NCBI RefSeq assembly: GCF_004803635.1
Contig: NZ_SSWX01000019.1
Span: forward strand, 1 to 64,000
Length of the DNA stretch: 64,000 bases
Source: Lampropedia aestuarii
GTDB lineage: Bacteria > Pseudomonadota > Gammaproteobacteria > Burkholderiales > Burkholderiaceae_C
Reading direction: 5' to 3'
Both the position numbers and the translations under genes were made by a program. Each line of letters starts with the position of its first letter. Position 1 is the first letter of the stretch. A model generated the notes under the pieces. The model was not told the origin of the DNA. It saw nothing but the letters and a program-made list of their open reading frames with translations, and made no database searches. Below, one piece after another: positions 1,717 through 62,912 of the stretch.

Positions 1717-1825
1717 TTAGAACTTTTTTACGATCTTTTCACAGTCGCGCAGTGCTCAAAAAAAGAGGCAGCGCCATGCCCTTTTTTGTACCTTGCGCGA
1801 CTGCGTCGAGACTTTGAACAGGTTC

Positions 1826-4228: not shown

Positions 4229-4570
4229 GCGCATTCCTTGATGTGATTGGCCCATTGCCACTCGCTTGTATTTGCAAAACCTTTGTTGCCAAAGACTTGC
4301 GCGATGCGGTGATTAGAGCGGGTTTGCGGTGTTTTGGCAGTCACGCAAGGCACAAAGCCAAACGGTGCAGCGCGCAGCTGCAACTGGTCTGGCCTATGCT
4401 CTCATGGCCCACATAAGAGGCCTTGCCGTCCAGCTCGATACCGCTTCCCCAGCAACGAGTTGTTTGCAGAGTTGCCCTAGAGCCAGTGGCCATGGCGCGA
4501 TTGTCGTGATGAACACGCCTGTGCGCAGTCGTCGCTGAGGGCGATTTTTGTCAGTCTGTCCAAACCATTA
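4229..4570. other. Intergenic gap without recognisable gene
   Basis: These 342 bp separate the racemase start from the symporter terminator. Short frames exist on both strands, but none shows a domain, coding-like composition or a ribosome site. The promoter of the racemase gene must lie here, but no clear -35/-10 pair was identified. Confidence 0.5.
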
Positions 4571-6080: not shown

Positions 6081-6185
6081 ACACCCATCTCCACAATTGA
6101 AAAAACGGGAAAGGTGTAGGCCGTGGCTCTGTTGCCTCGCGCCGAGGAAATCGGTGCGCATGGGCAATGCAAGCTGGGGCGCTCA

Positions 6186-6300
6186 TTCCTTCCCTTCGCC
6201 GGCATGATCCGGATCAGGTTCTAAGGGTCGTAGCCTACAGTTTTGCTGGCTGTTTTCTCAGCCCTGCGCCCATGTCAAGCATGGGCCAGGACACCCCTAG
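6186..6300 (-). promoter_or_regulatory. TPP (thiamine pyrophosphate) riboswitch, THI element
   Basis: On the minus strand the order of conserved THI-element blocks is complete: GGGGTGTCC, then GGGCTGAGA, then ACCCTTAGAACCTGATC and CGGATCATGCCGGCG, ending GAAGGGAA. The aptamer precedes the symporter gene by about 100 bp. That spacing leaves room for an expression platform acting on termination or on the ribosome site. TPP binding would be expected to switch the transporter off when thiamine is plentiful. Confidence 0.95.
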
Positions 6301-6400
6301 GAACGTTGGCAAGCGCCGCACCATGTTATGCAACGCTTTGGCCAAGCATTATAGAGAGCAATTGGCCAGGCACCTACTGGCCACAGCGCGCGCTAACTGC

Positions 6401-17645: not shown

Positions 17646-17703
17646 TTAGAGCCTGTTTGCGGTCTGTTTGCGGTCTGCAAAAGAAACCCCAAACACGCTC
17701 TTA
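17646..17703. repeat. Dispersed repeat, 58-bp minimal copy
   Basis: Both family ends with almost nothing between them: TTAGAGCCTGTTTGCGGTC at the left and, read from the right on the minus strand, TAAGAGCGTGTTTGGGG. An internal GTTTGCGGTCT unit is duplicated. The element lies in the 186-bp gap between the binding-protein and permease genes of one transport operon. Its hairpin would form in their shared mRNA. Confidence 0.75.
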
Positions 17704-22026: not shown

Positions 22027-22297
22027 TAAGAACGTATTTACGATCTTTTTGCAGTCGCGCAAGGCACCAAAAAGTGGCAGTGCAAGGCGCCTGTTGCCGC
22101 TCATACGTCTGTATGAGCAAAACGGGCAACGCCGCAATGCGCTTTTTTTGCGCCTTGCCCTTCGGGTTGGAGTCCAAAAGGCACGCAGTTTTGTTAAAAA
22201 TCCTCGCCGGGCAGCGAGCCCGACTGCGGTTTTTGCCGCGCATCGTATCCTTTTGGGCTCCAACGCGGTCTGTAAAAAGATCGGAAACACGTTCTAA
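22027..22297 (+). repeat. Dispersed inverted-repeat element, full-length 271-bp copy
   Basis: The reference copy of the family. The left end is TAAGAACGTATTTACGATC and the right end, read on the minus strand, is CTTAGAACGTGTTTCCGATC, giving imperfect terminal repeats of about 25 bp. Module 1 (to about 22175) pairs AAGGCACCAAAAAG with CTTTTTTTGCGCCTT and carries an inner hairpin, GCTCATAC-GTCT-GTATGAGC. Module 2 (about 22176-22265) pairs TTGGAGTCCAAAAGG with CCTTTTGGGCTCCAA. There is no protein of transposase type inside. It lies in the 609-bp gap between the gltS start and a lipoprotein gene. Confidence 0.85.
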
Positions 22298-22910: not shown

Positions 22911-23029
22911 GCCGCTGTGGCTTGAATCATTGGACGCTTATTTGTAAAGCACAACGGCTGTGCGCATTGGCCAATCCAACAGAAAACCAAAACATATAGA
23001 TGCATATGGCATTCCGTGCGCGCTGCCTG

Positions 23030-23135
23030 GTTGGAGATTCTCGCCGGGCAGGTAGCCCAACTGCGGTTTTGCCGCGCATGGCATCCTTTTGGTCTTCAAC
23101 GCGGTTTGCGACAAGATCGTAAACAGGTTTTTTTA
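23030..23135 (+). repeat. Dispersed repeat, right-half copy
   Basis: Corresponds to module 2 and the right end of the full-length element: TTCTCGCCGGGCAGGTAGCC, ACTGCGGTTTTGCCGCGCAT, CCTTTTGGTCTTCAACGCGG, then AAGATCGTAAACAGG. Module 1 and the left end are missing. Its last bases are the TAA stop codon of dtd, read on the minus strand. Confidence 0.8.
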
Positions 23136-29892: not shown

Positions 29893-30076
29893 TAAGAACG
29901 TGTTTACGATCTTTTTACAGAACGCGTTGAAGCCCAAAAGGAGCTGCAAGGTACAAAAAAGCGCATTGCGGCGTTGCCCGTTGTGCTCATAGACACGTTT
30001 GAGCGGCAACAGGCGCCTTGCACTGCCTCTTTTTTGTGCCTTGCGCGACTGCAAAAAATTCGTAAACACGTTCTAA
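29893..30076 (-). repeat. Dispersed inverted-repeat element, 184-bp copy
   Basis: A copy in reverse orientation with the best-preserved ends: TAAGAACGTGTTTACGATC at the left, and TTAGAACGTGTTTACGA when the right end is read on the minus strand. Compared with the 271-bp copy it keeps module 1 in full and the right arm of module 2, but lacks an internal block of about 87 bp. It lies between the esterase start and the PLP enzyme gene. Confidence 0.85.
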
Positions 30077-31716: not shown

Positions 31717-31816
31717 TAAGAGCCTGTGGCAGACTCTACGAACCTGTTCATCATCCCCACGCAGCCGCGTTGAAGCCCCAAAGGATGCAATGCGCGGAGA
31801 TTATGAACCGGCTCTG
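31717..31816. repeat. Dispersed repeat, compound remnant
   Basis: Two family ends in succession: TAAGAGCCTGTGGCAGACTC at 31717, then GAACCTGTTCATCATCCCC from 31740. The latter runs into CGCAGCCGCGTTGAAGCCCC and an inverted end, GATTATGAACCGGCTC, at 31799-31814. It ends 25 bp upstream of the iron alcohol dehydrogenase start codon, so it occupies the promoter/leader region of that gene. Confidence 0.65.
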
Positions 31817-62640: not shown

Positions 62641-62912
62641 TAAGAGCCTGTTCAAACTCTCGATGCAGTCGCGCAAGGCACAAAAAAAGAGGCAATACAA
62701 GACGCCTGTTGCAGCGCATACGCCTGTATGAGCACAACGGGCAACACAGCCATGCGCTTTGTTGTGCCTTGCCCTTCGGGTTGGAGCCCAAAAGGCACGC
62801 TGCCTTGTTAAAAATCCTCGCCGGACAGATAGCCCGACTGCGGTTTTTGCCGCGCATCGTATCCTTTTGGGCTCCAACGCGGTCTGCGTGGAAACTTTGA
62901 GCAGACTCTAAG
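62641..62912 (+). repeat. Dispersed inverted-repeat element, 272-bp copy
   Basis: A second full-length copy with both hairpin modules. Ends are of the second subtype: TAAGAGCCTGTTCAAACTC at the left and, read on the minus strand, CTTAGAGTCTGCTCAAAG at the right. The interior is strikingly similar to the 22 kb copy, including CTTCGGGTTGGAGCCCAAAAG, which contains the arm TTGGAGCCCAAAAGG, and GCCGCGCATCGTATCC. Confidence 0.85.

Follow-up and report, generated by a model that had tools for sequence, protein, structure and literature searches.

Copies of the element in the window

The repeat at positions 29893-30076 of the window (the whole analysed stretch of 64,000 nt of Lampropedia aestuarii DNA) comprises 178 bp (29896-30073, minus strand) between two TAA target duplications (29893-29895 and 30074-30076). 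Aligned to the full-length element at 22030-22294 (plus strand, 265 bp, TAA/TAA, both arms), it can be followed through module 1 and then skips to the final part of module 2, leaving it about 86 bp shorter. This agrees with the earlier note, which had put the loss at about 87 bp between copies of 184 and 271 bp. The part missing is arm 2 (module 2), about 129-217 on the 264-bp reference, and both terminal inverted repeats are retained. Four filler bases, AGCT, lie at the deletion junction (29942-29945, minus strand) and are absent from the other six copies with the ~129-217 deletion. Chance is excluded as the source of the repeat by 83 BLAST matches to the 178-bp copy in its own genome at E<=0.001 and by 383 end-motif matches there, against 7 for a control pattern. 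The copy folds at -88.1 kcal/mol (z -8.4). The full-length copies have both arms over the full model length of the ~265-nt family, and the 178-bp copy, which lacks arm 2, is most likely a decayed, one-armed derivative of a structured non-autonomous IS5-type element.

Five further copies or fragments lie in the window. The element at 62644-62908 (plus strand, TAA/TAA) is also full-length and carries a second kind of end (GAGCCTGTTCAAA...). A 106-bp copy at 1720-1825 (plus strand, TTA/TTA) has a shortened module 1, as had been noted, but it ends on either side in the left, module-1 type of terminus, and is more than the shortened module 1 alone that had been described. The 52-bp copy at 17649-17700 (minus strand, TTA/TTA) contains barely more than its two ends, in keeping with the earlier description of it as lacking either module. 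A 75-bp degenerate copy (31740-31814, minus strand) and an arm 2 fragment corresponding to model positions 152-220 (23018-23085, plus strand) are also present. The lengths of 184, 271, 112 and 58 bp first given are those of the 178-, 265-, 106- and 52-bp elements plus two 3-bp target duplications each. The sole Rfam match in the window above the gathering score is a TPP riboswitch at 6174-6308 (minus strand, 64.1 bits).

The family in the genome and its shortened forms

The window belongs to a 4.17-Mb assembly of 75 contigs, of which 863.5 kb (the window and 40 further stretches) was taken as a sample. The covariance model R1 finds 63 separate places in this sample at E<=0.01, counted by hand with strands merged. 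The full-length copies in the 30 loci examined measure 262-277 bp between flanks and exactly 264 bp in 26 of them; at least 15 of the 16 end bases match in 28 of the 30, and the 3-nt flanks are identical in 23 and not in the other 7. Two kinds of end, GAACGTGTTTACGATC and GAGCCTGTTCAAAGTC, occur on the same core within this genome. A simple gene prediction from codon usage marks 82% of the sample as coding, yet places 37 of the 41 copies of at least 100 bp outside genes.

Forty-four of the 63 R1 places were aligned for the analysis of deletions; of the others, which were set aside, 11 are full-length or cut and 8 are partial hits. The ~129-217 deletion is found in seven of these 44 shortened or atypical copies, and together with a second deletion in three more; six of the seven share their end points within the resolution of the alignment, and the seventh is the 178-bp copy with its filler. 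A deletion of about 45-96, which removes the inner hairpin of module 1, is present in five of the 44. The earlier reading of nested internal deletions with retained ends, as in MITEs, is thus borne out by the shared end points. As to the discreteness of length classes, which the note proposed to test, four discrete classes are seen (264-265 bp, the ~129-217 deletion, the ~45-96 deletion and a 16-bp form), with lengths that scatter between them.

Of the seven copies with the ~129-217 deletion, six were set against six full-length copies. The 178-bp copy has 94% identity to the full-length copy L010; among the deleted copies compared it has 90% to L063 and 74-78% to the remaining four. Since deleted copies are nearer to full-length copies than to one another, the losses look like repeated events at short repeats, and the class appears either to have formed more than once or to be old and not a recent subfamily. 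The deletion junction, GCCTTG joined to CCTTTTGGGC, sits at short repeats (CCTT..GGG) that would fit slippage.

The shortest form is a 16-bp stump, for example the unit between TNA duplications at C23:213800-213821 of the window genome (G000). When the sample was scanned for units of 11-40 nt that begin with an end motif and have TNA flanks, 29 matches were obtained, 22 of them exactly 16 nt long, against none in a reversed-sequence control. Genome-wide, the stump pattern TNAGARCSTGTTYACGWTCTNA has 42 exact matches in the window genome, 14 in the genus genome G003, 4 in G002 and none in the other seven genus genomes searched. In a separate genome-wide scan, 49 units among the first 100 of 108 matches have TNA on both sides; the flanking N is equal in 38 of the 49, against a shuffled mean of 22.8, and none of 20000 shuffles reached this value. 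The variable 14th base is A, T, C and G in 35, 9, 4 and 1 of the 49, as expected from exchange between ACGATCT, on the inner side of the left end, and the tip of the right end, ACGTTCT or a variant. The second end type gives one stump in the whole genome.

Copies and stumps inserted side by side, with the TNA target in common, were observed at L043:4920-5214, at L055:16675-16713 and in L032. A separate repeat of about 130 bp at L069:16206-16341 (G000:C23), with copies on contigs C33, C5, C27, C45 and C23 at 73-82% identity, is a different element as far as checked.

A 400-kb sample from one other member of the bacterial family contained two full-length copies and no short forms, indicating that heavy fragmentation is not general. 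Judged from these alignments, the short forms appear to behave as repeated deletion products of the full-length element, unlike the mobile long and short length classes of Correia elements.

Ends, target duplications and a partner insertion sequence

An insertion sequence with the same ends (GAACCTGTTCAAAATCTTTT) is present in genomes of the same genus, a set that includes Lampropedia cohaerens CT6 (G001), Vandammella animalimorsus (G007) and Allofranklinella schreckenbergeri (G009). Seven of its loci were delimited: five measure 848 bp between TNA flanks, one 845 bp and one 841 bp, and the flanks are identical in four of the seven. The 848-bp form occurs in two genus genomes and the 845-bp form in a third, each with TNA flanks. 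Two frames of the IS code for DUF4096 and DDE_Tnp_1, and it matches the NCBIfam model transpos_IS5_3; the copy in the window genome itself (C74, L122, 841 bp) looks frameshifted. The reading of the short copies as MITEs gains support here, as their ends and TNA duplications match those of the 848-bp IS5-type element in relatives. Several L. cohaerens contigs (L126, L132 and L141) end within or next to the IS5-type element, which would suit an IS that is multi-copy and perhaps active.

The conserved core is found with several end types, which would tend to speak against an interior derived from the IS by deletion. Among the relatives compared, no orthologous site carries a full copy in one strain and a deleted copy in another, and none could serve as an empty or footprint site within the genus, because these genomes are too distant (mostly 64-77% similar over the matching parts of a 20-kb test stretch). 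On plasmids there is one case: the element occupies the space between two genes of NZ_CP017294 (Pseudomonas aeruginosa PA83), and it is absent between the orthologous genes on NZ_CP131792, where the spacer itself is not alignable. An Azotobacter plasmid pair considered as an empty-site case was set aside as not offering a clean site.

Fold and covariation of the intact element

In the intact element the two ends pair into one stem, from which two similar arms joined by CCC..GGG proceed. Thirty-one full-length copies from four genus genomes share one shape, in which 45 of 92 pairs have changed on both sides; 96.1% of the cells of this alignment pair, against at most 43.7% when the partners are slid. 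A wider alignment (A2) of 33 members from 33 genomes is nearly gapless and has 112 pairs in its consensus structure, which was derived from the same alignment and is favoured by it: 93.9% of cells are paired (shuffles 73.4, slid at most 42.6), 87 of the 112 pairs have changed on both sides (shuffles 59.2, slid at most 60), and 675 cells have changed on both sides (shuffles 177.9, slid at most 163). The full-length copy L010 folds at -154.3 kcal/mol, with a z of -13.6 against shuffles.

The earlier note had asked whether the ends of each length class are the most conserved part. Across species they are not: whole end families differ, and it is the distal arms and the inter-arm junction that are conserved. 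In A2 the outer stems have a mean column identity of 0.67-0.69, the two distal arms have 0.79 and 0.88, and the first and last 12 bases have 0.84; the covariation is strongest in the long outer stems. No Rfam 15 family reaches its gathering score on the element. The best sub-threshold candidate, isrK (23 bits, with 50 needed), was treated as chance, and beside the copies in 20 relatives Rfam gave only tRNA and glycine riboswitch matches.

Distribution and end types

The counts that follow are lower bounds, only 4-6 candidates per genome having been scored, and the E-values are rough, the model calibration having been short. Among 299 genomes of the family, model R1 matches at least 164 at E<=1e-3 (95 of 141 genera) and at least 111 at E<=1e-20; the weak matches, 24 of the 164 with exponents above -10, may be other hairpins. 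For the class, model R2 matches at least 88 of 369 genomes (70 of 272 genera) at E<=1e-10. At the same threshold at least 67 of 398 genomes of the phylum match (42 of 213 genera), 38 of the 67 lying outside the class. Carriers include L. cohaerens, A. schreckenbergeri, Azotobacter chroococcum and plasmids of P. aeruginosa PA83 and Halomonas sp. PA16-9. The 52 members examined are 262-270 nt long, and the match lists also hold some of 175-311 nt.

Nineteen class- and phylum-level members were inspected for motifs: AGGCG stands at position 55-57 in all 19, CAACG at 97-103 in 18 and CCC(N3-4)GG at 127-131 in all 19, counts that serve as a check of homology and not as an independent tally, since the model chose these members. 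The ends of members at large are of several types. GARCSTGTT goes with TNA and GGGYCTGTT with YTA..TAR, the target duplication in these relatives being TA inside YTAR instead of TNA; TACTC, TGTACTG and GGAA go with CTAG or TTAA, as in L281 (CTAG/CTAG) and L287 (TTAA/TTAA), and several of the 19 have unequal flanks.

Compared with plasmids and phages, the window element matched nothing beyond 45 bp in two faecal phage clones, and four further look-ups with other members had no match. One phage clone from human faeces (MT835604, L248:1440-1607, an unannotated phage scaffold) holds a shorter relative with TAA flanks, different ends and only the module-2-like core. Pattern searches of viral contigs matched 1, 0 and 0 contigs, and the module-1 pattern had no match in the genome contig collection. 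In the IMG/VR contig IMGVR_UViG_3300031413_000603 (L147) the end motif at 4320-4347 is followed by CGCAG.

Proposed origin of the short copies and alternative explanations

We propose, with considerable confidence, that the 178-bp copy arose by deletion from a non-autonomous mobile element of IS5 type, one that was probably moved in trans and whose arms are lost by deletion after insertion. The intact element, 264-265 bp with terminal inverted repeats and 3-bp TNA duplications, can fold from either strand into an end stem and two homologous arms. Its movement would most likely be driven in trans by the two-frame transposase of the 848-bp IS5-type element, which has the same ends and target. 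Following insertion, deletions between short repeats of almost the same sequence, probably through slippage, would remove the palindromic arms again and again: the CCTT..GGG repeats would remove arm 2 to give copies like that of 178 bp, and the ACGATCT/ACGTTCT repeats would remove nearly everything and leave the 16-bp stump.

The short forms, the 16-bp units included, could instead be mobile themselves, the transposase inserting truncated elements and the classes spreading as subfamilies. Short copies do carry matching TNA duplications, and the 16-bp class is uniform and abundant. We nevertheless regard this as improbable: copies with the same deletion are nearer to full-length copies than to one another, 35 of the 49 stumps end in GATC, where a complete end should have GTTC at its tip, and the second end type, common among full-length copies, has left its single stump, which fits its poorer internal repeat. 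Little credence is given to the proposal that the copies are bidirectional transcription terminators spread by transposition. From the 41 copies, 6 that reach the edge of a stretch and 4 that fall within predicted genes were dropped. Of the 31 classified intergenic copies, 10 lie between convergent genes, a kind of spacer that makes up 17% of intergenic bases (binomial p 0.03), but most (16) lie between tandem genes, and a terminator would need neither conserved internal loops nor a fixed length of 265 nt.

Template switching can keep long inverted repeats symmetrical. The covarying stems might accordingly reflect neutral correction of quasi-palindromes in a passive MITE whose fold has no function, an explanation that suits the concentration of covariation in the long outer stems and that we consider unlikely but worth keeping in view. 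It accounts for covarying stems and not for conserved loops; the near-fixed length of the 52 members also stands against it, as do the distal arms and CCC..GGG junction, whose columns rank with the most conserved in members that have quite different ends. Selection on the fold is, as we read the alignments, the most economical explanation of conserved loops, near-fixed length and covariation across differing ends. A Correia-like element, moved by a transposase peculiar to it and working through a transcript that RNase III cleaves, would share the short length, the long inverted repeats, the long and short forms and the intergenic position, yet it has hardly anything to recommend it beside a TNA or YTAR target in place of TA termini, a length of ~265 nt in place of ~107/155 (as given in the accessible part of PMC2229807), and an IS5-type partner with the same ends. 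RNase III processing of a transcript of the element is in itself possible.

The larger finding is the intact element, with its conserved core, differing ends and distantly related carriers. MITEs are usually viewed as passive, species-specific leftovers of insertion sequences. A near-fixed length, covarying stems and conserved loops in more than 100 genomes, under different transposon ends, suggest selection on the fold itself. Tentatively, and with the balance of our judgement somewhat against it, the full-length element may be a folded nucleic acid (RNA or single-stranded DNA) that is mobile and spread across the phylum, whose two-armed core of ~265 nt would be the unit of selection and whose interchangeable ends would ride on whichever IS5-type transposases are available; the loop pair AAGGCG / GCAACG in both arms would then be a putative binding or catalytic site, and the window genome would display a pathway of decay from arm loss through double deletion to the 16-bp stump. 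Why a non-coding parasite keeps a structure thus becomes a testable question, and the deletion series with its shared end points offers a natural record of the loss of long palindromes in bacteria.

Comparison with known systems

No description of a two-armed element of ~265 nt was found in the accessible parts of the open-access literature, including PMC4666352, PMC2229807, PMC10969869, PMC2718517 and PMC3189936; individual members of the family may have been seen before as repeats, for instance in subscription papers or ISfinder. Correia or NEMIS elements of Neisseria, to which the short forms had been likened in the earlier note, are also small and intergenic with inverted repeats and long and short forms, but the likeness goes no further: the element here is 264-265 bp long with TNA duplications and an IS5-type partner, and target and size rule out membership on the available text of PMC2229807. 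The Caulobacter intergenic repeats (CIR) resemble it in having two arms with a linker and a structure conserved between genera; as far as the same source describes them, they differ in their length of ~110 bp, a GANTC motif and the lack of a terminal stem formed by the two ends (PMC2229807). MITEPsy1 of Pseudomonas syringae has IS5-like ends and a CTAG/YTAA duplication, as does the GGAA.. end type of L286 and L287, but is 100 nt long, and the accessible part of its description (PMC3189936) has no two-armed 265-nt core.

ERIC and REPIN sequences are likewise structured, intergenic and present in many copies; ERIC is 127 bp and REPINs are REP doublets forming hairpins, and in the descriptions available the end types and 265-nt core seen here fall outside both. 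Closest are the IS5-family insertion sequences with a TNA target, which we take to be the IS1031 group, and the MITEs derived from them, which have in common with the present element the ends, the 3-bp TNA duplication and a partner transposase of transpos_IS5_3; what distinguishes the present element is a conserved two-armed interior that is shared across the phylum while the ends vary between members.
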